From Gari tellinella (lineage: Eukaryota; Mollusca; Bivalvia; Cardiida; Psammobiidae), in the NCBI GenBank assembly GCA_922989275.2, contig OV277857.1, positions 83,569,321-83,633,320 of the forward strand: 64,000 nucleotides of DNA, in the 5' to 3' direction. The notes under the pieces are model-generated. The model was not told the DNA's origin. It did no database searches and worked only from the letters and a program-made list of their open reading frames with translations. Positions 10,201 through 61,882 of this stretch are shown one piece after another. Each line of letters starts with the position of its first letter. Position 1 is the stretch's first letter. Position numbers and translations under genes: made by a program.

Positions 10201-12848
10201 GTCCCGCTATTCTAATACACTGTATCGCCTGGGTGGTGACCAATATTGTTCACACTTCTATTTAACAAATTGCAACTAAATCCGACCAATGCAGGTCACT
10301 ATTTGCAAAGAATTCATAAGAACAGGATTTATACGTATAAGTTGCAAAGTAATAATCATATACCAGATTTGGGCAGGTGTGTAACGACATACTCATTCGC
10401 TGCATGAACGCTCTCGTCTTTACCAACATCTAGAGGTACTACATGCAAGCTTCTGGAAGAACTAGACTTCAACGTCCGTGCTCCGTCACCGTCAGGGTGT
10501 AGACAACCGGCAAACACTGTAAACCCGAGCTCATCCAAACGCCTGGCAGCATCATGCCCGAAACCTACAATACATACATAAATAGTATCATTATTTCAGT
10601 TAACCGGAACTCGTACAAGCGCCTGACAACATAATGCCTGAAACTTAAAACCAATGCTTCATAAATATCCAAATTTCAGATAAACTCGTCGAAACGCTTT
10701 GATACATCGTTTTAGAAACTTATAATCCATACTTCATAAATGTCCTTACAGTTACACACGACCTAGTCAAAACGCCCGAAACCTATGTACAGTCCAAGTA
10801 TAATTATATCTTATTCCAGAAAAACTCGACCTTGTCAAAGCGCCTGTCTACACGTGCCCGAAACCTACAATACATACATAATAAGTTTCCATATTTCTGA
10901 TAAACCCGACTCGTAAAAACGCCTGGCTATATCGTGCCTGAGTCCTACACTCCATACAATTGTAATATGAGAGATGAATGGCTCTGCATGCTAAGTTTTA
11001 ATGGGATATGAAGCTGAACCGCCTATTTATACACGGGGACATGTTTCTTACGGATATCTGTCATCTGTTATGGTTAGTGTCAGTGATCTCTTAGCATTTT
11101 CTTAGTTTTCTATGCTTTCTGTCGGCGTTACCTATCCCGTAGCCACTGGTCCAAATACAATCCTGAGAGCACAGTCTATTACCCAATTACAGTCGAACTG
11201 TAATATATCGTACTCGCTTATCTCGAACTAGCCGATATTTCGATACATGAATAACACTACTTCATACTCGGTCAAGTGGAGCATACCCGTGTTTCAAAGT
11301 TAAAACGTGGCTTAACCACAATTTAACTTTGAAATACGGGGTGTTCGACATAACCGAGTTCGAGATATCGAAGTTCGACTGTACTTGAAGTCTGTTCATT
11401 GGCATCAGGGCATACCCAAACGTCGGTGGGCCTAGCATGCTGCATGTTCTTGGACAGATCACCTCCGAAAATTTGCAGCTTGGCCTTGGGCGGCGATGTA
11501 CTCAGTATCCGTTTGTTGCCATGGGGAGTATAAATTTTGTATCCTTATTTCAGATAAATCAAAGCCCGTTCAAACACATGGCAGCATCGTGCCCAAATCC
11601 TACAGTTCAAATGTCGATAAATCTGAATTACTGTTTGGACGTCAAAGTAAAGTGATGCTAGAATATTTTCAACCGACAATCAACAGAAACATTTACAAAA
11701 AGATAAATTGTGAATAGTTTTCTAATGCAAGCATTGTAGTACAAGATTATCTTAAAAACAAAATGAATCATACATTAACTGTTTTCAAACAAAGAATAAA
11801 TGTTTTATTCACGACCAATGTTGATATGCTGGAAAATGTTTAAAGACGTACACTAATGTTAAGTGTATCCCAGTCACAGGATTGCTTTGAATTAAAGTGC
11901 TATTTCATTGGAAGAAGTTTCATTATACACTCGCGTTCAACTTGCACGAGTACTCAACCTGACATTAACCGTTGATAAAATATACGAGTATCCAATTTTG
12001 AGTCGGCAAATTAATCTTAGTTTCACCAACAATCTTAACTCTCTATTGTATACATACACCAAAGTGTATAAATGCGGCCATGCAGATAAACAAATGGCGT
12101 CTTCCGTGAAAGTCAGTTTCCAATGAATCACTGCATTGAATCACTGACATAAAAATGTTGTAAAAGCATTATTCTTAAAGTATTTGAGAAAATTGTTTTC
12201 AATTTTGGCATTTTGAATACACTGTACATAAACAAATTGCAATGATATGTCCGTTTTACTTCAATGCGAGCATCTGTGTCGATCTTAAATATAATTCGGT
12301 TCCAAAACAAGTTGAAAGCCATAATGCCAACAGACAACAGTAGTTAACGTTTTATTAATCAGGAAATGGTGCTTCGCTAATATAATTTCAAACGTGGTAT
12401 CGTCGCCTTTAAGTTTACCACATACGACCGGATACGTACCAATACATCACCATCCTTACTCATACGTGTTAAATCTCGTACAAACGTGATCGGTACTATC
12501 CAAAAACATGACTGATGACAAGCGAAGTATGTATTTTATCACTTCACCCAAACTTTCTCGTTGGTATTGACATGTTGATATGTAGAAATACAGAAATAAA
12601 TGTCATGAAAGAATAGTAAAACATGTTTACTCGCCTGTATCGCATCCTGTGATAAAAATACCTTGACCTTTGACCTCAACTGTGCCTGTATACTTTCGTC
12701 TTATAGCTTTTATGCAAACATAAAGCGCTGTAATTCCTACACAATACAGCCATTTTGAGCTGCTGAAAACAAAATATGTACCGAAACAAAATATCACAAA
12801 GTATACCAATTCAAACAGCTGTACACTTGCAAAATCGAGCAGAGCCAT
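4110..12848 (-). CDS. SDR9C-type dehydrogenase copy 2, complete, six exons
   Basis: Joining the six exons listed separately gives 1116 nt and 371 residues with no stop. Seen: two N-terminal hydrophobic stretches (about residues 11-28 and 34-46), cofactor motif TGCDTGFG at 67-74, NNAG at 145-148, catalytic-type N170, S197, Y210 and K214 (YHTSK), and the C-terminal part with PVIDAMVHAI. Known for the family: these are the Rossmann-fold and active-site motifs of classical NAD(P)-dependent SDRs. The LDELGFTVFAGCL, GLWAILNNAG and GRVVNVSS stretches and the anchored N-terminus fit SDR9C enzymes (HSD17B2, BDH1, RDH group), which oxidise steroid, retinoid or hydroxy-acid alcohols. Inferred: membrane-bound oxidoreductase; the substrate cannot be read from sequence. 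Intron 1 has a GC rather than GT donor. Introns carry a LINE, a SINE, MITEs and an exon-2-derived array. Confidence 0.9.
4435..4625. mobile_element. Hp1 MITE in intron 5 of copy 2
   Basis: Core AACAGTTTGGATACTGATTA / GGTCAGGATCAAAACTGTTT, with right terminus ATGGCGGTGAAGAGGTAA. Confidence 0.75.
4655..4904. mobile_element. Complete Hp2 MITE, TTAA-flanked, inverted relative to 3746
   Basis: TTAA at 4655-4658 and 4901-4904. It holds the same palindrome (GATCAGAGGGCTCC, loop TATC) in opposite orientation, 242 bp inside intron 5 of SDR copy 2. Confidence 0.85.
4953..5170. mobile_element. Hp1 MITE in intron 5 of copy 2
   Basis: Ends TTAAACCTCTTCACTG and GCAGTGAAGGGGTTAA. The core palindrome at about 5067-5131 has tip CCGCGTGACGCGG. 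Confidence 0.8.
5275..5517 (-). CDS. SDR copy 2, exon 5
   Basis: 243 nt, phase 0 to 0: acceptor TTTAG|TACCAACGA and donor CACACG|GTATTG. Encodes YQRYR..., MWETLSDDVRATYG, KPVIDAMVHAIMSEQP and ends WFDSHT. Confidence 0.9.
5646..5666. repeat. Poly-G run (~21 nt)
   Basis: An uninterrupted G tract in intron 4 of SDR copy 2. Confidence 0.95.
5995..6120. repeat. 63-bp direct tandem duplication
   Basis: Two nearly identical 63-bp units starting TAGGGTAAAGGCAATTAATA lie back to back in intron 4. A single diverged version is found at the equivalent place in intron 4 of copy 3 (about 15655-15730), so the unit doubled after the genes split. Confidence 0.9.
6286..7713 (+). mobile_element. 5'-truncated LINE with 10-bp target duplication
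   Basis: The direct repeat GAAATTCAGA stands at 6286-6295 and again at 7704-7713, right after an A-tail at 7696-7703. Between them, broken frames read like the end of a LINE ORF2 protein: PKLVYLF, FLWNGKK, GGLNMIDVESFIRSIKLKWI, RIDDRVKQFKFKLVQNIL, then NCNICN...DYKHFFLKC. The last matches the zinc-binding reverse-transcriptase-associated pattern (C-x2-C ... H-x4-C). Frameshifts and stops show it is dead. It sits in intron 4 of SDR copy 2 in the opposite orientation. L1/Tx1-type is likely but unproven. Confidence 0.88.
7853..8046 (-). CDS. SDR copy 2, exon 4 (active site)
   Basis: 194 nt: acceptor CCCTAG|GTCGAGTGG and donor GAAAAC|GTGAGT. Encodes RVVNVSSVRG, YSAYHTSKYALE (YxxxK) and FGVKVANILPGNF. 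Carries catalytic Ser, Tyr and Lys. Confidence 0.92.
8488..8640 (-). CDS. SDR copy 2, exon 3
   Basis: 153 nt: acceptor ATACTGAAAG|GTTTGTGG (poor pyrimidine tract) and donor AAAAG|GTAGAT. Encodes LWAILNNAGFGVMGD and NMNVNCYG, with the structural NNAG and the Asn of the catalytic tetrad. Confidence 0.9.
8818..8849. repeat. Perfect 32-bp palindrome
   Basis: The arms TGATATCATCACTACA and TGTAGTGATGATATCA are exact complements with no spacer, in intron 2 of SDR copy 2. Confidence 0.95.
8943..9113. repeat. ~170-bp near-perfect inverted repeat (foldback)
   Basis: Arms of about 80 nt (left inner end AACCAGATAAC complement, ...GAATGGGTTGTTATCTGG; right CCAGATAACAACCCATTC...) meet at ACGAGTCCACAGGACTCGT. 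It is AT-rich and has the size of a foldback MITE. No coding content. Confidence 0.9.
9415..9597 (-). mobile_element. tRNA-derived SINE
   Basis: On the minus strand an A-box-like TAGTCCAGTGGTAACACG and B-box GAGTTCGATCC are spaced as in a tRNA head, followed by a body with a GGGGATT hairpin. Related heads occur near 49270 and 57095. Confidence 0.7.
9625..9740. mobile_element. Hp1 core remnant
   Basis: TTTTGATCCAGATCCGACGC and GCGTCTGATCTGGGTCCAAA form the imperfect Hp1 hairpin. GGCGAAAGGATTAA at the right may be a decayed terminus. Confidence 0.65.
10364..10564 (-). CDS. SDR copy 2, exon 2
   Basis: 201 nt: acceptor TTGTAG|GTTTCGGGC and donor AAATCTG|GTATATG. Encodes FGHDAARRLDELGFTVFAGC and VVPLDVGKDES, the end of the cofactor motif and the second Rossmann strand. 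Confidence 0.92.
10585..10960 (-). repeat. Tandem array of exon-2 5' fragments (~80-bp period)
   Basis: Directly upstream of exon 2 in intron 1, at least five degenerate copies repeat the intron end plus the first ~45 nt of exon 2. Marks are the complement of GTAGGTTTCGGGCA, then GCCAGGCGTTT.GACGAG, then TTTATCTGAAATA. Copies are centred near 10625, 10705, 10775, 10850 and 10930. Most keep an AG-like acceptor; all have lost the rest of the exon. Confidence 0.85.
10960..11530 (-). repeat. Inverted duplicate of 33599-34178
   Basis: The sequence matches the plus strand at 33599-34178 in reverse complement. Shared marks include CAAACGGATACTG.GTACATC, TGTCCAAGAACATGCAGCA and CAGAAAGCATAGAAAACTA. 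An Hp4 element is inserted at the same point in both. No function is recognised, although one frame is open across 11400-11530 in both copies. Confidence 0.88.
11188..11383. mobile_element. Hp4 MITE, TA-flanked
   Basis: Ends TACAGTCGAACTG and its partner GATATCGAAGTTCGACTGTA, with central hairpin TTTCAAAGTTAAAACGTGG. About 196 bp; ends resemble pogo/Tigger-type elements. Confidence 0.85.
11550..11615 (-). repeat. Isolated exon-2 5' fragment
   Basis: TTTCAGATAAATCAAAGCCC followed by CACATGGCAGCATCGTGCCC and CCTACAG is one more unit of the exon-2 fragment array, on the far side of the duplicated block. Confidence 0.75.
11616..12634. other. Rest of intron 1 of copy 2, nothing recognised
   Basis: AT-rich, without a coding signal or an identifiable repeat. 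Short open frames here look like chance. Confidence 0.5.
12635..12848 (-). CDS. SDR copy 2, exon 1 (start)
   Basis: 214 nt from the ATG at 12848. Encodes MALLDFASVQ, two hydrophobic stretches, a basic IRRKY and GQGIFITGCDTG. The junction reads GATACAG|GCGAGTAAA, so the donor is GC, where copy 3 has GT. The phase is the same and the downstream exon fits, so a GC-AG intron is the simplest reading. Confidence 0.88.
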
Positions 12849-17300: not shown

Positions 17301-20300
17301 TCACGATAAAGACATTTGTAATTATGAATTGCAAAGTGTTTATGATAAATCTCTACTTAACGTATACATGTTTCATACCAGATTTAGGCAGATGTTTGAC
17401 GACATACTCATGTGCTGTCTGTACACTCTCGTCTTTACCAACATCTAAAGGTACTACATGTAAGCTTCTGGAAGAACTGGACTTCAACTTTCGTGCTCCG
17501 TCTCCGTCAGGATACAGACAACCAGCAAACACGGTAAACCCGAGCTCGTCAAAACTCCTGGCAGCATCATGTCCGAAACCTACAATTCATACATCATACG
17601 TATACACATTTTGTAGTAAATATACTTTCAAGTGTCGTTTTGCTGATAATGCTGATAATATCTTAAGGAGTGTTTGGTGTTTCTAGATGACATACTTATC
17701 TTTTCTCATACCTTTAAGGAACATATCGAACATTTTGATTCTGTTTCCAAGCGTTTACTTTCGCACAATTCAAAGTTGATGGCTTCCAAGTGTGAATTCT
17801 TTAACACTTCTGTGAGCTACCTAAGTAATGTTATATCTGATCAAGGTATTCAGACTAACCCTGAAAAGATCAGTGCTTTGACAGATTTGCCTGAACCATC
17901 TAACATTTAGGGTTTTCGTCAGTTCTAAGAATTTGCAGGCTACTACAGCCCTTTATTAAAGGTTATGCCAATTTGGTTGAACATTTAAACAAACTCCTGG
18001 AGGGTCATGTTATTGGCAAGAAAGACTCAGGTACAAAAAGAGGCGAGGCAACGTGAGGGACGAGGCTCAAAAGGTAACTTTCAGGAACGATTGAAGAAGT
18101 TCTATCTAGTCCACCTTACTTAAAGTATGCAGACTATTCATGCTGGTTCTAGCGCGATTCATGGTATTTGCCGATAATTTTCTGTCGTTCATTTCGTTTC
18201 AACGCCGAAAATATTCAGTTCATTTCTTATATATACTCACGGAATTTAAAAACTGTGCATGGTAAAAATCTATTTTAAATGTACACGTTTTCAAAATGCT
18301 CACGTAAAAACGGTTAATACAGCTGAATAAAAAGTGTAGAAGGTATTGGTTACCCTTTTCGTGAAATTTACGTTAATTTTGCGCGTCTAAAAACATTGTC
18401 TATTTTTTAATAAATTGGTCAGAATACTCATTTGTACAGTACATGTAACACGTTTTCAATGTACACTGGTTGTTTGGGCAGTAAATCATCGAAAAAACAA
18501 GTAAGATTTGCTTTATCAACCATGACGGCCCTGCCACGGCTGTCTGAAAATGCGCGTTTATGTTCAGTCAGCATATTAGAGGTTGGAATGAAGAAAAAAT
18601 GATGTCGCATGCCGAATGTCATTATGGAGACGTATCGACAAAATGCCAATGCTCGCGAGAACTTGCGACCAAGGTTATCGCTATTAACGTAACGTCGACA
18701 AGATACGTATTTTTCCGTTACACATGTGCGTGATCGTTTTCTGTCTCCAAACTTTACGGATATAAACATTCGAGGAGTTCGTCTTATCAGCCGGAGGACA
18801 GTGGTGAAAAGATTACGCTAATTTTGAATCCGTCCGTGACGTCCTACTGTACGTCCCGTTCTGACGTCAAAACCGCCATATTGTCTTAAAGCATGGCATC
18901 GCTCACCCCACGTTGCTTACGTGCGTTGTCACGGCTTTCATACAGAACAAAACCATCGAGGTCATTGACTGGCCCGCAGTCTCATCCGATCTCACGCTAA
19001 CTGGGCACGTTTGGGATGAGATTGGGCGTCGTTTGCGACGTCTACCGAAACAGTCATTGACGTTAGAACAGCTGGCTGATTGTTCAGTCATGGTATGGAA
19101 TGGCATTCCTTAGCAGTTTTCGCAGCGTTGGCGAGATCCACTCGACGATGATGCCGTGCTTGTCTTGATGCAAACGGAAGACACATGCATTTTTATTTGT
19201 GTGACAATGGTTTTGACCCTTAATGACAAAAACGCATAGCAGTACAATCATGATTGACATCACACAATAATGACTCTTATGAAACGTTAAATCGATGTTT
19301 AAAATAAACAATAACACAGTCAATTTATATCTGGTTTGTTAATTCATATTATTTATAATGCTTTTCCCAATGCACAGTTTTTAAATTCCGTGAGTATATA
19401 TTCAATTGGCTCATTTACTGTCTCACGACGGCATTTTGTATAAGTTTAACTCTCCCGAGTGTCTGACTTATATTCCGCCTACATTAAATATACAAGCACT
19501 TGCTCGGGAGTTGTTTCATGATTGAACTCCGGTTTATAATTGTACAAAGCAGACTGCACTTGAGCAATATGAAACCCTGGTTACATACTCAATACGGTTG
19601 AAAATAAATGTTATTTTCATTGTTTTGTGTTTATATTCCGTATAATGATTTCCCATTTGTTCAAATAATATACTCCTGGAAGTATATATAAGGCGTTCCA
19701 CGAGTAAACAAGACTTCTTGTATTGCAAACAAAGTAGAATTAGACCACATTCTTTCAGATCCTTGTCTACACTTCGTGTCACTCATTAGCATGTCTAGTG
19801 AAATGTTACCTTTTGTATTTACAGTTGTAGACATTTAGAAAACGCCCTGCTTGAGCTAACGGCTAGATTAAGTGATACAGCGCTCCGTTTCTACAACGAC
19901 ACCCAACGGGAGACAAAAATATGTGCGTTGTTCGGATGGAGTCATTGAAGGGAGGGAACTTTGCTAACAACTTGAATCCAGACCAGGCGACGCGTAAGGC
20001 CGACATCTTAATTTGACAGGGATTTCAGATATTGTCAATAGTGCCGACATAATATTAGTTACACGGTATTTCGGCAGGGTGTTCGGGCTTGTATGATGGT
20101 TTTGAATTCCGTATTTCCTGAGCGCAAAGCTTTCAGGAAATACGGAATTCAAAGCCGTCATTCAAGCCCGTACACCCTGTCGGATTGCCGTGTAACGAAC
20201 TTATTACCAGTCTAGATCCAATACAAGAAAGAAAGCATACATAATCTGACAAAGTTTTACTGTCTTGACCCTTACAGTTGACACTTGAAATTGACATCAG

Positions 20301-23300
20301 TTCACTATTTGCGGGTATGGAGAGTACAAAAATCTATTCAGTTAAACTTCAATATCTGGAACTCGCATTATCAGTTGATTTTATCTACATTCTTACAGTT
20401 TAATGCAATAATTTCTTAACCCCATATTTCAAAATTTTAACAGTGGAAAAACCACCTTTTTACTTTGAAATCCGGATATGTTCGACTGAAATGAATTCAA
20501 GATAGGCCCTATCGAAGTTCGACTATTTTTAACATGGTTACGTCATCACATTGCAATATGGACATTCATTAACAGGAAATTTCAAACGAATAGCTCTAGG
20601 AGGACATTTGCGTTAAATATGAAACACTGTTACGATAAATTATAACAAATGAATGGTAATATTCAGGAGCGAACAAATAAACACGTACGTCAGTGGCTAG
20701 GCACTATATCGAGTTTTTTTTCTCTATTTTGGTTGATTTCGATAAACATATTGATCTAAATATATCTTTTTTAGTGTCAATTTGATTATAAACCAGTGAC
20801 AAGTTGTGTTGTACTTTGCATTGTCCATTTCACTTCCAGTCATTTGTTTACCATGGTGACGACGCGGATGGGGTAATCAGGGAAATCAAAGAAAGGAACT
20901 CGCATATAATCGATATCTGAGTGACATGTACGTACGCATAATGATAGATTCAATACAGTTTTTAATCAAGATTTATTTTTATTTCTTTTACAACAATTGC
21001 TTAATAAACAAAAAAGAGTGATTGTTTACGCGAATCGATTGAAGGAACAACATCTAAACAGTCACTTGATCCGTACTGTCCGGCTAAACCAATGTGTACG
21101 GTTTCGTTCACATAGGTCACATGTGCAGTTGCAGCCTATCAGAGTCCAAGAGTTTATGATGACTGGAAAAAATAACATTTATGCTATTGAGGATGAATTC
21201 CCCATGTTCCTGGTTTGTCAGTTATATAACGATATAAGAATCGAATGTTTTAAAACATGCTGGTTCTAACGACTAGTTTGCATATGAACATTTCATTGAT
21301 AATGTCAGACTCTAGTGATAGCACTATACATGCTAATGCACAATTTATATTCCGAGCATTCGAGGTCAGATAGGAATATTCGAAAGCTAACTGTAAGACA
21401 TATATATAATGTATATTTTTAGCTTCATGCATTCAATATATCTAAGGTTTGTTTCTAAACCGGATAAGTTTCAATTTTGGTATTCAAGTATTTAATCGTA
21501 AATGCCACTTGCAAATGAACATTATAGAGATCGGTACAAACTACATCATAATGTTTATGTAATGTTTCAAAATATTTAGATATTTAGAATATATGTGTCA
21601 CAGGGGGAGGAAAAGATGCAGCCTGACCGGGGCTCGAACCCGGGACCTTCGGACTACCGTTCCGACGCTCTACCGACTGAACTAGCCGGCAGACTACAAA
21701 TTAATCTCCCCAACTTTGTTAGGTTCGGTAGCGTGACATTCTAACCCTCGAAATTGAAATTTGTCCTCGAATTACCCTACATGAAAGTACATGTAGTTCA
21801 ATTGTGAGTTAGTCAATGTTATATATGCAGGCGCTGTGAAGCTAACCGTCACTGTGTATACCCGTACACAGGATATTGGTACCAGCGAGTCGAGAGAGTT
21901 AGCCGGTCGCTCTGCAGTTCAGGTATGTTTTTTCATGATTTATAGCATAAAATGTATATGATCAACATGTGTATGATACCGTTTTAAAGCGTGATGTTTC
22001 TGGGATACACTGGTGTCAAAACATTTCTGTTTTATTTAGAGAAACTCTCGTAAAACATATATATATATATGCTGCCTGGTACCGGTAAATAACGAAAATT
22101 GCTGACAAAAATTTATGATATCAACTGTTTAAAACGATCCCGCCTGCAATCTTTTCATAAAACATTCGATCCTTTTCATAATTCCTGTGACTCACTAATA
22201 CCACACTGTTGGGTCATACTTTTAAGAATAAAATTAAAACAAATTTGTGTCAAGTGTACGGCATCTTGGTTGTGAATGAAATTTCACTGCACGGCATATT
22301 GATGTGTCACTGTACGGGGGTTTGGTGCCAGGTATTTGGCCCTAAAAACGTTTTGCTCTGTTACAGCTCATCCTCTGGGTGTCACTTTCAGCCAAAGGTA
22401 GCTGAATACCGAGAACAGTCTTCCTATTTATAAATTATATACTTTTCATTGTTAATTTACTTAGAATAGATAAACTAGATCTAGAGCGAGTATACCTAAG
22501 AAGCTTAAATTGAAACGATGAATACACTTTGAACATATTCTAATAGCTATTCACGTAATGGGACACTTTTAAGCGAACGATTAACTGTTACGGACTTTAC
22601 CTAATTCGAAGATTTCTATTAAAAATCTAACACAGAGTCAATAATGATTGCGGTAAATTTATGATATCAAACTAATCCACCCACTTCTACAATATTGAAA
22701 TACACGTATACAACTATAATTTCCATTTGTGTTTTTTCAATTTTGCACGTACATATCGTGCAGTAAGATTACTGGGTTATGCGGTATCATTTACCACAGT
22801 GCAATCAGAATAAGTTGCCCACTTTAAAGTGTGCGGTATTCAATTCAACCCAGAGTTCTTTTCTTTAGAAAACTGCCACGGTCGTGTTACACTTGCTTGT
22901 TATTCCTTATCTTGCTGAATTGTCGTCTGATTCAATAATATCGTGGACGAAGAACCACTAAGTCCTTTTTTTCAATAAGAGTGCTAAACAGTTTGAATAT
23001 AGATCAGAAGTCACGTTAAGCGGCGTGAATATAGGGTTAATACACCTTTTTTCGTGCATTAACATCTGAAGAAGCCCGCGGGCTGTGGACAACGTATGCA
23101 AATAGTCGCTGTCATGGACATTTTACTGAAATGAACTATCTGGTCGTAGACCAATTGGAGTGTCAGATGGCCGATTTTGTCAATTTCAAATTTGATTGAT
23201 TTGGGTTTACGGCCACAAACTGGGACACAAATGTTGTGTCAATTTCATGTAATCTATGATAGCAAGTCGCTGCCGTCGAAAGTTCGGCATTTTAAAAATA

Positions 23301-26300: not shown

Positions 26301-27972
26301 CTCTCCCCTTCTCTCTACATTGATCAGGTATATAATTTTAAAGTTGCACACTTTTGCTGAACAACCACGCTGGCGAAGGTATTTTAACTCCTGACATCCA
26401 TGCCTCTCTATCAAGTGTGATATTACCTCCCGGAACGTTGGTAGTTGTTTCTTACAGTAGGTTTATTTGTACAGGTCCATAATCTGTAAAAAACAAATGA
26501 CAATGAACAGAATGTATACTTGTACAAACCAAACTGCCGTCGATTTCGATGTAGATTTAAGCAAGATGCCGTACACTGGATTGAAAGGCTTTTGCAATAT
26601 GCCGTTCACTAGCGTATCAATTTGCCGTACACCTAGCCAAATTTCATTTCGGTTTTTTAAAGCACATACGGCAAATACAATAGTTAAAGCTTCATAAATA
26701 TTGATCAAGATAGTACAAATTACTCGTATAACATGAATAATTCTCTTATGCAGTTATAAAAAAAATATTACAATGATATTTTGTCAGCAACCGTTGTTAT
26801 TTACCGGTACCAGGCAGCATGTTTATACGTCTTACGAGAGTTTCTCTTGGTAAAACTGAAATGTTATGACATCAGCATGTTCCAGAATCATCACACTTTG
26901 ATACAGTATTATTTTCCATATTGATCTTAGACATATAATTCAGGAAATCACGAAAACATACCTGCACTGCAGAGCGATCTGCTAACAAATCCATAACTTT
27001 CTCGACTCGCTGGTACCAATATCCTGTGTACGGGTATACACAGTGACCATACAATAACAGTCAGGGTCCCTCGTTGTGGGCGCCAAATGTCACAGTGGGA
27101 GAAAAAGATGCAGCCTGACCGGGGCTCGAACCCGGGACCTTTGGACTACCGTTCCGACGTTCTACCGACTGAGCTAGCCGGCTGACTACAAATTAATCCC
27201 CTCAATTGTGTTAGGTTCCGTTCCGTGACATATGGTATAAAATGCAAAATTGCACATGTCACGTACTATCAAACTCATAGCAATAGGCTATGAATCATTT
27301 CTAGCATATGTTAAACACATGCTGAAACAAGTTTGAAATGAATAACATTTGTACAGGCTATGATGATATTCAACATGATAGAATATACGTAGATCAAATA
27401 CTTGTATCATGGACAGGAGGCCTTCTATTACAATACACCATATGTTATGTTATGTTTTGTTTTCTAATCCTGTGTTGTGACATATATTCCGAATCGTCTT
27501 CAAAAGACAGTTCCACAGAGATGTCACAAGACAGAATTAGATGGGGGGGGGGGGGGGGGAATAAGAAATTAGGTGTATTTTAAAGTTTTCACTTACAAAC
27601 AATTTTGTCGTACGACAATTCGAAAGTCGGGCCCCTCCCTGCATCATTTCGAAGAGGCGAATCTAATGTTTTGTGACACCGTAGGGTTTAGTGTAGACAT
27701 GAATAATTTAGTTAAGAAATAACCCCTTTATCTGGAGTCCTGAAATATTATAACGTACCTGTATCACATCCTGTTATGAAGATGCCTTGACCATGCACAT
27801 CTACTGTCCCTTTTAAAAGTCGCCCAATAGTATTCGCGCAAACATAAAGAACTACAAAGCTACCGTATATAGACCATGTCAAGCTGTTTAACATGGAATA
27901 CACAACACAACTTAGAGCCAAACAAATTACCAGCCTTAATAGATGTATGCTAATGCAACCAAACATAGACAT
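14251..27972 (-). CDS. SDR9C-type dehydrogenase copy 3, complete, six exons
   Basis: Six exons with exactly the same lengths and phases as copy 2 give a 371-residue open protein. Seen: hydrophobic N-terminus (about residues 9-27 and 33-46), TGCDTGFG at 67-74, catalytic-type N170, S197, Y210 and K214 (YHSSK), and conserved C-terminus. The usual NNAG at 145-148 reads NNVG here, followed by MCV instead of FGV. Intron 1 is nearly 10.2 kb and is filled by a Ty3/gypsy fragment, a Tc1-like element, two Hp6 MITEs, two tRNA-derived SINEs and an inverted repeat pair. Role as for copy 2, an NAD(P)-dependent alcohol/ketone oxidoreductase at a membrane. The NNVG change in a structural motif may alter activity. 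Confidence 0.88.
14362..15227. other. Intron 5 of copy 3, nothing notable
   Basis: Its first ~130 bp align with intron 5 of the relic exon 6 at 32518. A weak Hp1 half-core may lie near 14960. Otherwise no feature is recognised. Confidence 0.5.
15228..15470 (-). CDS. SDR copy 3, exon 5
   Basis: 243 nt: acceptor GTTTTAG|TACCAACGG and donor CGCACG|GTATTG. Encodes MWETLSDDVRRTYGRQYL and KPVIDAMVHAIMSEHP, ending WFDSRT. Confidence 0.9.
15834..16027 (-). CDS. SDR copy 3, exon 4 (active site)
   Basis: 194 nt: acceptor CCCTAG|GTCGCGTAG and donor GAAAAC|GTTAGT. Encodes RVVNVTSIRG, YSAYHSSKHALE and FGVKVAKIQPGNF. Confidence 0.92.
16466..16618 (-). CDS. SDR copy 3, exon 3
   Basis: 153 nt: acceptor GTTTTAAG|GTTTGTGG and donor AAAAG|GTAGAT. 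Encodes LWAILNNVGMCVMGDLEWLT, so the NNAG motif is changed to NNVG. Confidence 0.9.
17379..17579 (-). CDS. SDR copy 3, exon 2
   Basis: 201 nt: acceptor TTGTAG|GTTTCGGAC and donor AAATCTG|GTATG. Encodes FGHDAARSFDELGFTVFAGC. Unlike copy 2 it has no exon-fragment array next to it; retroelement sequence begins only ~85 bp upstream. Confidence 0.92.
17660..18165 (+). mobile_element. Ty3/gypsy reverse transcriptase/RNase H fragment
   Basis: The plus strand reads VFLDDILIFSHTFKEHIEHF (polymerase motif LDD), then LMASKCEF, YLSNVISDQGIQTNPEK, and after stops and frameshifts EFAGYY, GYANLVEHLNKLL and SSPPYLKYADYS. This order is the RT core running into RNase H of a Ty3/gypsy element. No LTRs are seen; it is a truncated, dead copy in intron 1 of SDR copy 3. 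Confidence 0.88.
18229..19401 (+). mobile_element. Tc1-like DNA transposon, internally decayed
   Basis: Terminal inverted repeats match over about 30 bp (left ATACTCACGGAATTTAAAAA, right the complement). Inside, the plus strand has pieces of a Tc1-type transposase. Near the N-terminal helix-turn-helix region: VRDRFLSPNFTDINIRG and SRRTVVKR. In the C-terminal DDE part: VVTAFIQNKTIEVIDWPAVS, VWDEIGRRLRRLP and MVWNGIP. Stops, shifts and a gap over the first catalytic region show it cannot make transposase. Confidence 0.88.
19402..20057. other. Intron 1 of copy 3, nothing recognised
   Basis: No coding or repeat signal identified beyond short chance frames. Confidence 0.4.
20058..20196. repeat. 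139-bp imperfect inverted repeat
   Basis: Arms of about 62 nt (GTTACACGGTATTTCGGCAG... and ...CTGTCGGATTGCCGTGTAAC) fold around CTGAGCGCAAAGCTTTCAG. The inner stem TTGAATTCCGTATTTCCTGA is exact. Confidence 0.9.
20325..20535. mobile_element. Degenerate Hp4 MITE
   Basis: CAGTTAAACTTCAATATCTG at the left, an imperfect TTTCAAAATTTTAAC hairpin and CTATCGAAGTTCGACT at the right match the 197-bp family with many changes. Confidence 0.65.
20536..21600. other. Intron 1 of copy 3, unresolved
   Basis: A 90-codon plus-strand frame (20997-21269) is open but resembles nothing I recognise, and no splice or repeat context supports it. Confidence 0.4.
21605..21765 (-). mobile_element. tRNA-derived SINE, copy a
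   Basis: On the minus strand GCCGGCTAGTTCAGTCGGTA carries an A box and GGTTCGAGCCCCGG a B box with a closed TPsiC stem. The anticodon stem TCGGA/TCCGA closes, but the acceptor stem has mismatches. The flanking tail is shared with 27085-27235, so it is a repeat and not a single tRNA gene. Confidence 0.75.
21836..22130 (+). repeat. Left arm of an inverted repeat pair around a 4.6-kb interior
   Basis: CACTGTGTATACCCGTACAC, ATATTGGTACCAGCGAGTCG and GCTGCCTGGTACCGGTAAAT recur in reverse complement at 26770-27060. Each arm sits beside a copy of the same tRNA-derived SINE. Confidence 0.8.
22131..23486. other. Interior of the inverted pair, mostly unrecognised
   Basis: Contains one decayed Hp1 core (about 22985-23030, AACAGTTTGAATATAGATCA). 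No coding region is recognised. Confidence 0.4.
23487..23727. mobile_element. Complete Hp6 MITE, TA-flanked
   Basis: Ends TACAGTGGAGAAAAACGTTA and AACGTTTTCTCCACTATA. Core GTTTGGAGCCTGATCAGACG with tip CCGGCTTAACCGG. Confidence 0.85.
23786..24048. mobile_element. Second Hp6 MITE, opposite orientation
   Basis: Starts TATGGAGAAGACGTTATT and ends GCGTTTAAACGGGGAAAAAT..CACTGT. Core with ACAGATCAGACGCCGG and GCGTCTGATCAGGCTCC. It lies only ~60 bp from the previous copy. Confidence 0.75.
24050..25165. other. Intron 1 of copy 3, unresolved
   Basis: Several short minus-strand frames (24498-24954) exist, but no family is recognised. An incomplete Hp1/Hp2-like core lies near 24165-24210. Confidence 0.35.
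25165..25345. mobile_element. Hp3 remnant with poly-G run
   Basis: A G run of about 20 nt is followed by GCAGGTTTAAAGTAAAGCCG and GAGTTACTTTCAGTCTGCTT, the two hairpin arms of Hp3 in degraded form. Confidence 0.6.
25385..26280. repeat. Degenerate tandem units (~150-230 bp)
   Basis: About five loose units repeat ACATGCATNCCAAATATNAA, GGAATATCTCAATGG.CATAGGAGTTA and TTTCGAAACCTAAAC, with AAGGTCACNGGGGT between. A non-coding repeat family. Confidence 0.7.
26281..26765. other. Intron 1 of copy 3, unresolved
   Basis: Open frames overlap on both strands (26463-26708). The minus reading is hydrophobic at one end but matches nothing I recognise. TGCCGT.CACT.G motifs recur three times. Confidence 0.3.
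26770..27060 (-). repeat. Right arm of the inverted repeat pair
   Basis: Reverse complement of 21836-22130, with CTCGACTCGCTGGTACCAAT and ACGGGTATACACAGTGACC. Confidence 0.8.
27085..27235 (-). mobile_element. tRNA-derived SINE, copy b
   Basis: Nearly identical to 21605-21765, including AGCCTGACCGGGGCTCGAAC on the plus strand and the tail GACTACAAATTAATC. It has the same orientation as copy a although the neighbouring arms are inverted. Confidence 0.75.
27540..27560. repeat. Poly-G run
   Basis: G tract of about 17 nt, about 200 bp from exon 1 of SDR copy 3. Confidence 0.95.
27759..27972 (-). CDS. SDR copy 3, exon 1 (start)
   Basis: 214 nt from the ATG at 27972 (a second in-frame ATG is two codons on). 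Encodes MSMFGCISIHLLRLVICLAL, a second hydrophobic stretch and GQGIFITGCDTG. Donor GATACAG|GTACGT is canonical. Confidence 0.9.
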
Positions 27973-28185
27973 GTTTAGGTGGCGAATAATCTGTGTGATT
28001 ATTCCTTATCATTGTATAAATCACTATGTGTATGTGCAGTGCAAGTCGACAAATGTTATCTGTCAGGTAAAGAGTCTCATATTAACTGAAGAAATTTGGC
28101 ATGCCAACTTGTTATCACAATCTATTTTGCAGTTTTTTAACTGAATTTATTTTTGTTGTGTCGGAAACCAAGACTCTTTGTTTCA

Positions 28186-28480
28186 TAAATATCCTTATAA
28201 CTCGCCTAAATGCTTAGTTACATCGTTTCCCCCGTACAATCCATAAAGATATATATAAGATGATATCCTTATTTTAGATTATCCGAGTTCGATCAAACAC
28301 CTTACTTATTCGTCCTCGAAATTTATAATACATTTAATATAATTAAAATTCTAATTGCGCTTGGCTACATCGTGCCCGAAATCCTGTTTTCAGTATATAT
28401 TAAGTATCCTGATTTCAGATAAACCCAAACTCGTCAAAAGGCATGGCTACATCATGTCCGAAACCTACAAACAGGCAATA
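28186..28480 (-). repeat. Orphan array of exon-2 5' fragments
   Basis: Four degenerate units of the ~80-bp exon-2 fragment lie upstream of exon 1 of copy 3, with no exon 2 beside them. The best unit (28415-28475) has TTTCAGATAAACCCAAACTC, GGCATGGCTACATCATGTCC and CGAAACCTAC. Confidence 0.8.
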
Positions 28481-32406: not shown

Positions 32407-32517
32407 TTAATCTTTCTTCAAGTGGCACTTGTCAAGTGTACAATCACAGTTGGTCATTTTAGTGATGATCCAGTCCGATACACATGTTGGTAGGTACCCA
32501 TAGTAACGAGCAAGTGT
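32407..32517 (-). pseudogene. SDR copy 4 relic: isolated exon 6
   Basis: All 111 nt are open and keep acceptor, stop and the TLARYYGYLP...CHLKKD protein end. About 130 bp of intron 5 homology follows upstream. No exon 5, 4, 3 or 1 in the right orientation is found nearby. The exon is intact, so it is either a recent relic or a usable stray exon. Confidence 0.8.
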
Positions 32518-34178: not shown

Positions 34179-34794
34179 ATTTCAACAGACAAGCACTACA
34201 TACACTACATAACTGATATCGAAGCCATATTTAAGTGGCCATAAAGACTGGTAAAAGATTGTCAGAGAAGTGCTCTTATGAGGTCATCTTATCAAATGAT
34301 CTACTAGTTGTAAGCTTTTTGAAACTCCAAGCTGCCACTCACGTCTATGGCACTCTACAATGTAGAAAAAGACGGATTTGTGTGGATTCTGGAAATAAGA
34401 AAGTAGATGTTCTTGCTAGATTTGGCAATAACTGAAGTCGCACAAGAGGAGAAATCAATAGCCATACAGACACTGATGGAGCAAAGCTCTCTCAGAGATG
34501 ACGTCTGTCTACTCGACAGATAGAAACAAGTATTTATCGTCAGGTTATGCAACGGGCAACCGATTCAATATCCATATAAACATCAAGTTTAAGCCGTCTC
34601 CATTTCCGGTATTTTCCCACAGAGCATATTTTAGAACAATATACACATTTTGAGGAGAAAGGGAAAATGGTAGCCAGTATCTACCTCGCTACAGACTAAA
34701 CTTTACGGACAGATGGAAAAGCTTAGGAAGAAGTCATTCTTCATCGCTGGATCTGGTGTTACCATGTAGCTAGGAAACGCCGGTAAGTAAGTAG
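34179..34794. other. Insertion inside the duplicated block, unrecognised
   Basis: This stretch separates the duplicated flank from the exon-2 array and has no counterpart in copy 2. A 66-codon plus frame at 34235 is not recognised. Confidence 0.4.
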
Positions 34795-34854
34795 GTATTG
34801 GTTGTAGGTTTTAGGTAAGATGTAGCCATGCGTTTGAGCGATGGGTGGATAATT

Positions 34855-35085
34855 AGGGTTGCACGGCTCTGCGACACAAAAACCGTCATATAGCGCCAAT
34901 GAATGGCGAATGTTGGTGAGATGAGATGATGATATCAAGCAGATGATTTCGGCTAATCTTAATCGCTGGAAAGCATCGCATTTGATCTAAATCATCGACC
35001 TACTTTCCAATTAGTTCGTGGCAGAGGGAATAATCTCGGTATAATAAACAGAAACAACTCTCTATGACAATTTAGCACCAGAACC
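34855..35085. repeat. Dispersed repeat shared with 47520-47725
   Basis: Shared marks: GTCATATAGCG, AGATGATTTCGGCTAAT against AGATGATGTTGGCTAAT, and TTCGTGGCAGAGGGAATAATC against TTCTTAGCAGGGGGGATAATC. Confidence 0.7.
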
Positions 35086-35484
35086 ACGACACAGTATCGA
35101 ACTCGGGCCTATCTGAAAAAAGAATACTTATCATATATGAATCGTAGATTTCGGGCATGACGCTGCCAGGTATTAGGGTGAGCTCGGGTTTCTCTTAAAG
35201 CGACTCGCAGCCAGATGGTGAATTTGCAAAAATAAAAGAAAATACTCAAATAAAACAAAATGTGTAGCATTATCGTGCATCTGGCATTAGAAAAATATGA
35301 TCAGTCTAAAACATCCTTAAGAAAAGTCTTCTCAAGCCTGATTTTTTTAGATATTTTCCATCGCTTCATCCGTTGCGTCGAAAGACGCAACATAAATTGA
35401 TCCAGGGCTCAGACATAAACCCGAGCCGAATTATGTACTCTCCATCGCTACACACTGAAGTACGTGAAAAGGATCCTAAATATA

Positions 35485-35600
35485 TGAATAGCCCGGTGGT
35501 CGAATAGGCTAAGAATTTTACTTATTTTGCTGTATGTCCCCACATGCCGGGTCCCGGGTGCGAATCCCACTAGAGCTCAATATTATTTATTATGGAAATG
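35485..35600 (+). mobile_element. tRNA(Leu/Ser)-like SINE head
   Basis: TGGTCGAATAGGC (A-box-like) and GGTGCGAATCCC (B box) with a long variable region, then an AT-rich tail. Acceptor pairing is poor, so it is not a functional tRNA. Confidence 0.6.
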
Positions 35601-36309
35601 CTTTTGTTAAACAGAATTTCTTATCCTAAACTAATTCTTACCCGTTTATACAAGCGTTTGACATATATATTTACAAATTACTATTTTAGATGCTAAATCT
35701 GGTTGCGAACCTCTTTAAATAAGGATAGCAATTATATATGGATTGTAAGTATTGGACACGATGTAGATTGGTTTGGACGAGCTCGGGTTAATCTGAAACT
35801 TGAAATATTTATCATATATGAATTATAGGTTTCGGGCACGGTGTTGCTAGGCGCATTGACGTGCTCTGGTTTATCTGAAATAAGGAAACTTATTATTTTA
35901 TATGGAGTGTAGGATTCAGGCAAGATGTAGCCAGGCATTTTGACGAGTCGGGTTTTTCAGAAATTAAGAAACTTATTATGTATGTATTGTAGATTTCGGG
36001 CACGGTGTAGACAGTCGCTTGGACGAGGTCGAGTTTTTCTTGAATGAGAATACAAATTATACATGGACTGTACATAGGTTTCGGGCACTATGTAGCCTGG
36101 CGTTTTAACTAGGTTGTGTGTAACTGTAAGGACATTTATGAAGTATGGATTTTAAGTTTAGAACACGATGTATCCAAGCGTTTAGATGAGTTTATCTGAA
36201 ATAAGAATATTTATGAGCAGTGATTTTAAGTTTCGGGCATTATGTTGTCAGGCGCTTGTACGAGTTCGGGTAAACTGAAATAATGATACTATTTATGTAT
36301 GAATTGTAG

Positions 36310-36510
36310 GTTTCGGACATGATGCTGCCAGGCGTTTGGATGAGCTCGGGTTTACAGTGTTTGCCGGTTGTCTATACCCTGACGGTGACGGAGCACGGAA
36401 GTTGAAGTCCAGTTCTTCCAGAAGCTTGCATGTAGTACCTCTAGATGTTTGCAAAGACGAAAGTATTCAGGCAGCGCATGAGTATGTCGTCAAACATCTG
36501 CCTAAATATG
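36310..36510 (+). pseudogene. SDR copy 4 relic: isolated, inverted exon 2
   Basis: 201 nt open, encoding FGHDAARRLDELGFTVFAGC and VVPLDVCKDES, preceded by the normal TTGTAG acceptor. The donor site reads AAATATG|GCACAG instead of GTATG, so splicing is probably lost. It lies opposite to every other SDR exon, and no exon 3 follows on the plus strand. Confidence 0.82.
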
Positions 36511-36689
36511 GCACAGTTCAAAATTCCCCTTGTCTGGAGTTCTGACATAGGATGTGCATGTACAATTTGTCACACAATTTTCATCTAGATAAGATAAGAG
36601 TTACTTGACAACTCATAACAATTTGCAAAAATCATCAAAACCATTTTTACATGATTAGCTCTTAGCAAGCACGCCTTGTAACCATAGTA

Positions 36690-37369: not shown

Positions 37370-38480
37370 GGTCAAAGGTGTAAGCCAAGGTCAAAATGAC
37401 TTAAAAATGGTATATGACACTCTGCAACTCCTGAGTAACATTTATGCCAAGTATCAAGTAAATGAGGTTGAAAGTGAAGGAGGAGTCCACCGTACAAGAG
37501 TTTGCCTGCCAATTTTAGACCAATTTCAAGACCAAAGGTCAAGGTTACAGAGATTTACTACTCATGAGTAACATTTATGCCAAGTATCAAGTGAATCAGG
37601 TTGAAAGTGAAGGAGGAGTTCAAAGTACAAGATTTTGCCTGCCAATTTCAAGGCCAAAGGTCAAGGTCAAGGTCACAGAGACCTGAAATTTGTGTCTTGC
37701 ACATATACTACTCCTGAGTAACATTTATGCCAAGTATCATGTGAATCAGGTTGAAATTGAAAGAGTTCAAAGTACAAGATTTTGCCTGCCAATTTCAAGA
37801 CAAATTTCAAGGTCACAGAGATTTGAAATTTGTGTCTTGCACATCTACTACTCCTGAGTAACATTTATGCCAAGTATCAAGTGAATCAGGTTGAAAGTGA
37901 AGGAGGAGTTCAAAGTACAAGATTTTGCCTGCCAATTTCAAGACCAATTGCAAGGAAAAAGGTCAAGGTCAAGGTAACATAGACCTGAAATGTGTGTCTT
38001 GCACATATACTACTCCTGAGTAACATTTATACCAAGTATCAAGTGAATCAGGTTGAAATTGAAAGAGTTCAAAGTACAAGATTTTGCCTGCCAATTTCAA
38101 AACCAAAGGTCAAGGTCAAGGTCACAGAGACCTGAAATTTGTGTCTTACACATCTACTACTCCTGAGTAACATTTATGCCAAGTACCAAGTGAATCAGGT
38201 TGAACGTGAAGGAGGAGTTCAAAGTACAAGATTTTGAATGCCGATTTCAAGACCAATGTCAAGGCCATAGGCCAAGGTCACAGAGACCTAATATATGTGT
38301 CTTGCACATCTACTACACCTGAGTAACATTTATGCCAAGTATCAAATGAATCAGGTTGAAACTGAAGGAGGAGTTGAAAGTACAAGATTTTGCAGACAGA
38401 CCGACTGAACGACGGCCGACCGACCAACCGACAGGCTGATTCCAGTATACCCCCCTCAAACTCTGTTTGTTGGGGTATAA
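37370..38480. repeat. Tandem repeat, seven units of ~130-160 bp
   Basis: CTCCTGAGTAACATTTATGC begins each unit (37430, 37561, 37713, 37853, 38013, 38161, 38315). CAAGTATCAAGTGAATCAGG and TACAAGATTTTGCCTGCCAA follow. It ends in GACAGACCGAC-type sequence. Confidence 0.9.
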
Positions 38481-52440: not shown

Positions 52441-53436
52441 GAAACAAAACAGTTCATGGCTCTCGCATAGTTAAGACTAAACAGCATTGCTGTGAAACTT
52501 TGTCAGATAACTCGTCTGCGAATCTTATTTACCTCACCTATAAAGACATACAAACAATTATTTAACCCCTTCGATAAGATCACAGCGTGATTTCAAGTAC
52601 TTTCAGTTCAGTTCATGTGATTTTAAACTGCTACCTATCAGCTGGTTCGGCGCCATTGGAACATTTTAGGTGTCGAGTTAATTATGTACGTTGAGTGAAA
52701 ACGATAATAAAATATGACAAACTTTGACTACTTAAATGTCCCGTTTTCCTCCAAATCCGCAAGGTGATTTAGCTGGTTATCATATTTTATTTCGAATTTT
52801 TACAGAAATGGGGTCGGGCTACAAGTGCTCACCACTTAGTTACAGCACTCCCCCTAATGTTTGAATACACAAAGAATGGACAATAATGGTGGTTATATAC
52901 CTATAAGCACTTTTATAAAATCAGGTGAAAATTGCACGATAATTATTTGATTTAGGGAATGGACAATGTAAACATGGTCAATTTTGACGAATTAAAATGC
53001 CATAATATTGAAGTATCTTATTTGGTAAAGTTTTCATACCTACAATCACTTTTAGCAAACTTGATGAGAAAAAATCAGATGACAACTGTTTGTGCTTGAC
53101 AGTTGCATCCAAATATTTTATTAACACCTACATGATGATAAACTATGACTTATTTTGATCACAATACCATATGAAGAAGTTTTCACTAAATCCGTCCCGT
53201 GCATGCCAGTATTCGCACAAGATCCATAACAAAACATTAATAACTGTGTCTTTTTTAAATGAGGATTTTTCCAAAGAATCCTAGTTACTGGGGGGTTGAT
53301 TTAAGGGAAAAGAGGGGGTTGATTCCTATATTTGAGAGGTATGGAAGACAACAAATAGTCATATTTTATCATTTATTTCAGCATTATATATAAATGATAG
53401 GAGAACAGTCTAAAAAAACTGTAACATTATGACACA
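52441..53436. other. Intron 2 remnant of copy 5 and junction to satellite
   Basis: AATTGCACGATAA, ATTAAAATGCCATAATATTG and ACAATACCATATGAAGAAGT align with intron 2 of copies 2 and 3 up to about 53235. In copy 3 exon 2 follows ~110 bp later; here it does not. Confidence 0.75.
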
Positions 53437-55490
53437 GATAGGGAGTAACATTACTCCCTAGCACTAGCGATCACTAGTCTAATTGAGAAATGTTCCTCTC
53501 TCTTATAACATTCTGATACAGATAGGGAGTAACATTACTCCCTAGCACTAAGTGATCACTAGTCTAATTGAGAAATGTTCCTCTCTCTTATAACATTCTG
53601 ATACAGAGAGGGAGTAACATTACTCCCTCACACCACTGACCACTAGTCTAATTGAGAAATGTTCCTCTGTCTTATAACATTCTGACACAGATAGGGAGTA
53701 ACATTACTCCCTAGCACTAGTGACCACTAGTCTAACAGAGAAACGTTCCTCTCTCTTATAACATTCTGATACAGATAGGGAGTAACATTACTCCCTAGCA
53801 CTAGCGATCAATAGTCTAATTGAGAAATGTTCCTCTCTCTTATAACATTCTGATACAGAGAGGGAGTAACATTACTCCCTAGCACCACTGACCACTAGTC
53901 TAATTGAGAAATGTTCCTCTCTCTTATAACATTCTGATACAGAGAGGGAGTAACATTACTCCCTCACACCACTGACCACTAGTCTAATTGAGAAATGTTC
54001 CTCTCTCTTATAACATTCTGATACAGATAGGGAGTAACATTACTCCCTAGCACTAGCGATCACTAGTCTAATTGAGAAATGTTCCTCTCCCTTATAACAT
54101 TCTGATACAGAGAGGGAGTAACATTACTCCCTAGCACTAGTGATCACTAGTCTTATTGAGAAATGTTCCTCTCTCTTATAACATTCTGATACAGAGAGGG
54201 AGTAACATTACTCCCTAGCACTAGTGATCACTAGTCTAATTGAGAAATGTTCCTCTCTCTTATAACATTCTGACACAGATAGGGAGTAACATTACTCCCT
54301 AGCACCTATGACCGCTAGTCTAATTGAGAAATGTTCCTCTCCCTTATAACATTCTGACACAGATAGGGAGTAACATTACTCCCATGCACTAGCGATCACT
54401 AGTCTAATTGAGAAATGTTCCTCTCCCTTATAACATTCTGATACAGAGAGGAAGTAACATTACTCCCATGCACTAGCGATCACTAGACTTATTGAGAAAT
54501 GTTCCTCTCTCTTATAACATTCTGACACAGATAGGGAGTAACATTACTCCCTAGCACTAGTGATCACTAGTCTAATTGAGAAATGTTCCTCTCTCTTATA
54601 ACATTCTGATACAGAGAGGGAGTAACATTACTCCCTAGCACTAGTGATCACTAGTCTTATTGAGAAATGTTCCTCTCTCTTATAACATTCTGATACAGAG
54701 AGGGAGTAACATTACTCCCTAGCACTAGTGATCACTAGTCTAATTGAGAAATGTTCCTCTCTCTTATAACATTCTGACACAGATAGGGAGTAACATTACT
54801 CCCTAGCACTAGTGACCACTAGTCTAATTGAGAAATGTTCCTCTCCCTTATATCATTCTGACACAGATAGGGAGTAACATTACTCCCATGCACTAGCGAT
54901 CACTAGTCTAATTGAAAAATGTTCCTCTCTCTTATAACATTCTGATACAGAGAGGGAGTAACATTACTCCCTAGCACTAGTGATCACTAGTCTAATTGAG
55001 AAATGTTCCTCTCTCTTATAACATTCTGATACAGAGAGGGAGTAACATTACTCCCTAGCACTAGCGATCACTAGTCTAATTGAGAAATGTTCCTCTCTCT
55101 TATAACATTCTGATACAGAGAGGGAGTAACATTACTCCCTAGCACTAGTGATCACTAGTCTTATTGAGAAATGTTCCTCTCTCTTATAACATTCTGATAC
55201 AGAGAGGGAGTAACATTACTCCCTAGCACTAGCGATCACTAGTCTAATTGAGAAATGTTCCTCTCTCTTATAACATTCTGACACAGATAGGGAGTAACAT
55301 TACTCCCTAGCACTAGTGACCACTAGTCTAATTGAGAAATGTTCCTCTCTCTTATAACATTCTGACACAGATAGGGAGTAACATTACTCCCATGCACCAG
55401 TGACCACTAGTTTTAACAGAGAAATGTTCCTCTCTCTTCTAACATTCTGACACAGAGAGAGAGTAACATTACTCCCTAGCACTAGTGAGA
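53437..55490. repeat. 84-bp satellite array, about 25 units
   Basis: Units start at 53437, 53521, 53606, 53690 and so on every 84 bp to about 55454. Each holds GGGAGTAACATTACTCCC (inverted repeat) and ACTAGTGATCACTAGT (perfect palindrome, or a one-base variant), then ATTGAGAAATGTTCCTCTCT. Shared variants recur every six units, for example TCTTATTG in units 9, 15 and 21 (54110, 54614, 55118). Confidence 0.97.
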
Positions 55491-60901: not shown

Positions 60902-61384
60902 CTGGGCCCGGGTGCATGACACATAGTTAGAGCTTACCTGTATACTAAATCCCTCGCTGAGAGATAAATATCGATTTTTAACTACAAGTTAAACTAACTG
61001 TGTTGCATGACACACCGCTAAATTCTAGTAACATACTAAAGTTTTAGTTGATAGTTAAATATTGATTTTAGTAGACAGGTAAGATAATTAGTGTTGCACG
61101 AGCGCAAAATTGACTATTTCACCGCTAAATTTAGAGGTACTCAGTGCAGCGATAAATCCTCTAGTAGCCAGTTAAGTCAGCTTACATAGCCGCGTTAAAG
61201 AAACATTTGGGATCCAGATCAGAAACTTAGCACCTCCGGTTTCTTATCAAGGTCAAAATTGTTTTATTATTTTTGATATTTTATTTCAATTTTCATTTTC
61301 TCTGTTTGAGATTTACATATTACTAAACGCCAACACAATGCATTAAAATATTTTAATTGACAACGGAATATGATTTATATTATT
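60902..61384. repeat. 483-bp repeat, copy 1 (GGGCCCGGG-headed)
   Basis: Begins CTGGGCCCGGGTGCATGACA. Contains TTACCTGTATACTAAAT and the inverted TTTTAGTAGACAGGTAAG about 150 bp later, then an Hp1-like half-core TTGGGATCCAGATCAGA. A 15-bp segment present in copies 2 and 3 is missing. Confidence 0.95.
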
Positions 61385-61882
61385 CTGGGCCCGGGTGCAT
61401 GACACATAGTTAGAGCTTACCTGTATACTAAATCCCTCGCTGAGAGATAAATATCGATTTTTAACTACAAGATAAACTAACTGTGGTGCATGACACACCG
61501 CTAAATTCTAGTAACAAACTAAAGTTTTAGTTGATAGTTAAATATTGATTTTAGTAGACAGGTAAGATAACTAGTGTTGCACGAGCGCAAAATTGACTAA
61601 CTACAAGTTAAGTTTCACCGCTAAATTTAGAGGTACTCAGTGCAGCGATAAATCCTCTAGTAGCCAGTTAAGTCAGCTTACATAGCCGCGTTAAAGAAAC
61701 ATTTGGGATCCAGATCAGAAACTTAGCACCTCGGTGTCTTATCAAGGTCAAAATTGTTTTATTATTTTTGTTATTTTATTTCATTTTTCATTTTCTCTGT
61801 TTGAGATTTACATATTACTAAACGCCAACACAATGCATTAAAATATTTTAATTGACAACGGAATATGATTTATATTAATCTG
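61385..61882. repeat. 483-bp repeat, copy 2 (tandem)
   Basis: Directly adjacent to copy 1 and nearly identical; about 15 bp longer through CTAACTACAAGTTAAG. Confidence 0.95.

Follow-up and report, generated by a model that had tools for sequence, protein, structure and literature searches.

How does a short repeat that carries a splice acceptor place and the beginning of a coding exon come to lie, in several copies, in the intron directly upstream of that exon, and does it affect splicing there? This question is raised by a 64,000-nucleotide stretch of the genome of the bivalve Gari tellinella (GenBank assembly GCA_922989275.2, contig OV277857.1, positions 83,569,321 to 83,633,320 of the forward strand; hereafter the window, with positions counted from its first letter). 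The window contains a cluster of short-chain dehydrogenase (SDR) genes, among which copies A, B, C and D were mapped by tblastn and boundary sequence. Intron 1 of copy A harbors six units of ~80 bp upstream of exon 2 (array A), each made up of ~32 nt from the end of intron 1, the acceptor place and ~45 nt from the start of exon 2. The array represents a known type of event, the boundary-spanning duplication of an acceptor, in an old form with multiple copies; judging from its sequence, it is probably a minisatellite seeded on the intron/exon boundary, that is, an old, decaying by-product of tandem duplication and a near-neutral passenger rather than a working device (estimated probability of about 0.78). 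The units, here denoted decoys, and the two exons that flank them are:

10364 to 10564, minus strand: true exon 2 of SDR copy A, with the acceptor AG at 10566-10565; its first ~45 nt are the seed of the array
10597 to 10675, minus strand: decoy u1, acceptor dinucleotide AA
10683 to 10746, minus strand: decoy u2, acceptor dinucleotide AA
10772 to 10810, minus strand: decoy u3, truncated, AG kept; below the profile threshold (E 0.078)
10820 to 10895, minus strand: decoy u4, AG kept
10897 to 10975, minus strand: decoy u5, AG kept
11554 to 11629, minus strand: decoy u6, apart from the other units, AG kept
12635 to 12848, minus strand: exon 1 of SDR copy A, from the tblastn map and boundary sequence; the intron 1 donor is GC (CAG/GCGAGT)

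A preliminary description of this locus placed at least five ~80-bp repeats, each with an AG acceptor, at 10585 to 10960. Five units are indeed present but actually span 10597-10975, with one of them truncated, and a separate sixth unit lies at 11554-11629; the AG is found in four of the six, u1 and u2 having AA instead. Decoy u3 contains a 4-nt insertion before the AG, which is common to the second array described below, and the intron half of u5 is partly replaced by flanking sequence, with a junction at 10960/10961. The head-to-tail units of ~80 bp fall within the range of ~10-100 bp that is typical of minisatellites. Tandem Repeats Finder at a score of 50 did not report array A, probably because the copies are diverged, and none of the matches from Rfam (three tRNA matches) and ARAGORN (one) lies inside the array.

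The repeated unit is readily detected when the region is compared with itself. In 10300-11700, it occurs in five places, namely the exon and four decoys, which show 71, 61, 71 and 69% ungapped identity to the exon at spacings of 80, 220, 80 and 655. A profile built from the copy A exon start and these four decoys was searched across the window and yielded 19 rows above the inclusion threshold, comprising three true exon 2 starts and 16 decoys (five in array A, including the four used for training, nine in a second array and two in a third one). The seven rows below the threshold are u3, three rows in the third array (E 0.81-7.2) and three chance-like rows elsewhere. With the copy A exon 2 acceptor as a single query, 15 matches were obtained at E <= 1e-3 (three exons and 12 decoys), and with that of copy B, 12 matches at the same cutoff; each of 16 other exon-boundary queries gave one to three matches, to themselves and to paralogous exons. 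Dinucleotide shuffles of the exon 2 query produced a match in 0 of 200 trials. The derivation of the units from exon 2, as originally proposed, is borne out by these searches.

The same holds for the earlier proposal that the acceptor and the coding start were amplified together, never with the rest of the exon. The repeat unit combines an intron end, an acceptor place and an exon start; most alignments of decoys with the exon share a 3' end (+42 to +46 in 11 of 14, +25 to +29 in the remaining three), and nothing in the three array regions matches the remainder of exon 2 at E <= 1. The exon start codes for GFGHDAARRLDELGF, a stretch in which 5 of 15 residues are invariant and two nearly so in a gap-free alignment with SDR proteins of nine other molluscs, and which lies in the cofactor-binding end of these proteins. 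Because the repeated part codes for a stretch conserved in mollusc SDR proteins, the repeat came from the exon and not the reverse.

Two further arrays, beyond those in the preliminary description, are present in the window:

34788 to 36277, plus strand: second array (C), with nine decoys that precede exon 2 of SDR copy C
28158 to 28470, minus strand: third array (F), decayed, two units above the profile threshold and three below; upstream of an exon 1 at 27972, with no exon 2 following

Comparison of the first two arrays provides a relative date. The best matches of A_u1 to A_u5 are C_u1 to C_u5, with identities of 90, 91, 87, 91 and 75% (next best 64, 67, 75, 82 and 65%), and A_u6 matches C_u6 weakly (67%, next best 62). 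Outside the A-C pairs, the identity between decoys is 45-81%, far below that of most orthologous pairs. Given this unit-by-unit correspondence and the far greater divergence of non-orthologous decoys, the array is older than the A-C duplication, with no homogenisation of its units afterwards; it was at least five units long when it was copied, together with exon 2 and the neighbouring intron, into A and C. In the unit tree, the A-C pairs of u1, u3 and u4 are supported at 98-99 and that of u2 at 84, and the exon 2 copies of A and C group at 95, with all other nodes at 62 or less. Longer stretches can be aligned as well: A 10959-10363 aligns with C 35898-36511 (88.5% over 615) and A 10961-11533 with C 34172-33598 (90.1% over 577); therefore, ~1.7 kb with four units was either lost from A or gained by C. 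The third array fits the A/C unit order loosely: the best match of F_u1 is u5 in both A and C, that of F_u4 is u2 in both, and that of F_u2 is u4 in A but u5 in C, F_u3 being without a clear partner.

Since the duplication, the decoys have changed at the pace of the surrounding intron. Between A and C, 34 of 360 decoy sites differ, compared with 51 of 571 in the flanking intron (Fisher p 0.82), part of the compared flank being a repeat that is also present elsewhere in the window. The real acceptor with the exon start shows 2 changes in 78 sites (p 0.04 vs the decoys). Across the whole of exon 2, dS is 0.21 and dN 0.05, as computed on 204 nt that include the acceptor G and two donor bases, with one of the nine synonymous A-C differences lying at the donor. 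The A-C changes in four decoy pairs show no bias for codon position (9/61, 3/61 and 7/62 at positions 1, 2 and 3; p 0.19).

Several observations weigh against this reading of the array as a drifting by-product. The slowness of the real acceptor rests on those 2 changes in 78 sites, and the rest of exon 2, with 16 of 156, is no slower than the decoys. The unit tree pairs A_u5 with F_u1 (56) and C_u5 with C_u9 (51), rather than A_u5 with C_u5. Decoy u1, which is beside the exon, is less exon-like than u4 (66 vs 73%), so that the growth was not that of a simple ladder. In addition, a comparison of 19 decoys with the decoy consensus reveals an excess of third-position differences (82/284, vs 52/287 at second and 66/280 at first positions; p 0.01) that persists without CpG columns (60/209 third, 48/268 second, 46/192 first; p 0.02). 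Among 14 non-redundant decoys, with orthologues counted once, the corresponding values of 60/214, 46/218 and 53/212 keep the same order and are not significant (p 0.25), and neither is the excess in array C alone (p 0.34). The excess could reflect decoys taken at different times from an exon that was changing mainly at third positions. The decoys also differ from their own exon most at third positions (121/284), which the evolution of the exon alone would produce.

Apart from a boundary-seeded minisatellite, the array might be a working ladder of decoy acceptors that would bind splicing factors, slow or divert the removal of intron 1 and lower the enzyme yield, or cause a small stop-containing exon to be spliced in. 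Some features of the sequence are in line with this scenario, which nevertheless appears unlikely. At the homologous place, four of the six decoys of A, 6 of 9 in C and 1 of 4 in the third array retain the AG (another decoy of the third array has an AG one base upstream). Within the 22 nt that end with the AG, u4 of A is identical to the real acceptor of its own copy at 20, and also in the next 10 exon bases; for u4 and the real acceptor of C, the number is 19 of 22. Furthermore, the intron itself starts with GC (12633-12634), in a donor that otherwise matches in full the seven-position consensus on which donors were scored; exon 1 copies at 27972 and 292-122 have GT where copy A has GC. Both in A (10749) and in C (36126), the AG-bearing u3 has behind it a donor-like GTAAGG, whose score of 4/7 equals that of the true exon 2 donor of A; together, u3 and GTAAGG would make a possible cryptic exon, 33 nt long in A and 48 nt long in C, with an in-frame stop. 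In human OGT and other genes, decoy exons are known to favour the retention of introns, as reported in PMC12017769. However, the decoys drift like the flanking intron, AA stands in place of the AG in the two decoys closest to the real acceptor, in A as well as in C, and no unit is found in the intron 1 assigned to the paralogous copy B. The stops are uninformative: whichever of the 15 decoys in A and C (10 of them with AG) is joined to exon 1, a stop follows 6-114 nt later, but a stop within 114 nt is also reached from 1839 of the 2067 positions in intron 1, so that the early stops are no sign of design. The lack of strong donors in array A was considered as an argument against cryptic exons and dropped, the true donor being no better than several sites there: no GT in the array scores 5/7 or more, the true exon 2 donor itself scores 4, and twelve other GTs between 11640 and 10364 equal it. 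A more specific variant, in which the array tunes gene output, with the decoys competing with the real acceptor of a GC-donor intron and u3 with GTAAGG serving as a poison exon, seems improbable to a still greater degree; if it were true, the number and state of the units would determine, among the SDR paralogues, what proportion of exon 1-exon 2 splicing is productive.

The two other explanations concern the origin of the units and are far less plausible. If the decoys were decayed duplicates of the whole exon 2, once used as mutually exclusive exons, the acceptor place in the units and the largely kept exon reading (the decoy consensus translates as GFGHDVARRLDEFGFI, which retains much of it) would be expected; yet the rest of exon 2 is unmatched in all three array regions, 11 of 14 alignments share the same exon end point, and the exon 2 donor end, when used as a query, matches paralogous exons only. 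Complete exon copies with both acceptor and donor, as in a mutually exclusive exon array, are not found in these regions, and we regard this origin as very improbable. Least credible of all appears to be a dispersed repeat or transposon family that was inserted here and gave rise to the exon start. Other repeats do occur close by, but all 16 above-threshold decoys in the window are located within the SDR cluster, either before an SDR exon 2 or in the 28-kb remnant, and the exon start is common to the SDR proteins of other molluscs. Among the two possibilities raised in the preliminary description, an effect on splicing and an exon-seeded minisatellite, it is the latter that is better supported.

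For a boundary-seeded minisatellite, the most economical history would begin with one tandem duplication across the acceptor that founded the array, followed by enlargement through slippage or unequal exchange. New copies would have fallen on the intron side because the last copy alone is joined to the rest of the exon; subsequently, the array would have been copied along with the gene, its units drifting ever since. By analogy with the human CBS 844ins68 allele, exon definition, which pairs an acceptor with the donor ~200 nt further downstream, would select the last copy, so that the decoys stay in the intron, and any use of a decoy would give an early stop, as would most intron positions here. 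The example of copy B points to retention of the exon even where decoys are absent, provided that the exon 1 at 27972 is its own. The locus amounts to a natural multi-copy version of the CBS 844ins68 event, with like acceptors before one true exon and with exon 2 of copy B, a seemingly decoy-free paralogue, offering an internal comparison. Two questions can be addressed with it: by what means exon definition distinguishes a true acceptor from a copy identical to it in 20 of 22 positions, and how arrays of this type originate and are maintained. Neutrality of the array would mean that numerous boundary-like decoys are tolerated by the splicing machinery over the long term.

Known tandem repeats across exon boundaries include a variable number tandem repeat of CBS, with 31-bp units, that spans the exon 13/intron 13 boundary on the donor side. 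The preliminary description knew of no family comparable to the present array. This view cannot be maintained given that human CBS 844ins68, according to a passage of PMC2630376, is a case of the same event in single copy, with one 68-bp duplication of the intron 7/exon 8 junction that creates two like sites, the distal one being strongly favoured. That passage speaks of donor sites, and the title of a 2002 paper among its references of a 3' splice site. The likeness lies in a duplication that takes in the end of the intron, the splice site and the start of the exon, whereby two like sites come to compete; as the respective passages of PMC2630376 and PMC1334203 indicate, in CBS the site joined to the full exon is strongly favoured. 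By contrast, CBS 844ins68 is one extra copy, a human polymorphism with tested splicing, whereas here there are six and nine copies, old and diverged, and common to mollusc paralogues. A case outlined in PMC8137991 resembles the array in that duplication of an exon/intron boundary gave a second splice site, the alternative transcript coding for a truncated protein, but differs from it in being on the donor side and consisting of 8 bp in one extra copy. The decoy exons of retained introns in OGT, ARGLU1 and SF3B1, as presented in the relevant section of PMC12017769, provide intronic splice sites that attract the spliceosome away from the true exon, and the one in OGT contains a stop; these exons have both acceptor and donor and are reported there to act, whereas in the arrays only u3 is followed by a donor-like site in A and C alike. 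No multi-copy array of an acceptor and exon start was found among the matches listed for the terms used in titles and abstract beginnings of open-licence PMC papers.

The remaining SDR features of the window are:

about 8640 to 8488, minus strand: exon 3 of copy A
about 8046 to 7853, minus strand: exon 4 of copy A
about 5517 to 5275, minus strand: exon 5 of copy A
about 4220 to 4113, minus strand: exon 6 of copy A
17379 to 17579, minus strand: exon 2 of copy B, a paralogue; exons of this copy at about 17580, 16616, 16028, 15470 and 14358
36310 to 36510, plus strand: exon 2 of copy C, inverted relative to the other SDR exons and without exons 3-5 beside it
copy D: exons 3-6 within the window

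Joined and translated, exons 1-5 of copy A match the Pfam family adh_short. The best solved relative of the product is DHRS9 (9b2f, E 1.9e-49), and the top 3 of 1520 protein matches, at 60-62% identity, are a protein of Ruditapes, one without a name and one of Mercenaria, with those of Ruditapes and Mercenaria named D-beta-hydroxybutyrate dehydrogenase-like. The exon 1 at 27972 (27757-27972) is assigned to copy B by position. It is only 42% identical to exon 1 of copy A, compared with 84-88% for exons 2-5 of B vs A, and exchange or fast evolution may have been at work there. The profile search revealed no unit between exon 2 of copy B and this assigned exon 1. Just upstream of exon 2 of copy B, a plus-strand open frame at 17659-17910 resembles, by eye, a retroelement reverse transcriptase; an insertion of this kind before the exon could be the cause of unit loss at this site. 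Copy C is probably a gene fragment, as indicated by the GC at the donor place of exon 2 (ATG/GCACAG; 36510-36516) and the lack of adjoining exons 3-5. An extra copy of an SDR exon 6 is located at 32410-32514, without its own exons 3-5 nearby, a sign of a broken gene copy.

The window also contains several repeats of other kinds. An 84-bp satellite occupies 53422-55488 (24.6 copies, 93% matches), a tandem repeat with a period of 147/302 lies at 37427-38393, and a 171-nt palindrome at 8943-9113 matches its own reverse complement at 88%. Two elements at 21596-21739 and 27088-27231 are 91% identical, with an Rfam tRNA match inside each, and appear to be similar to tRNA-derived short interspersed nuclear elements. 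Finally, the near-identical direct repeats at 60902-61882 and 63660-64000 (93.5-97.4%) point to a recent duplication that reaches the end of the window.

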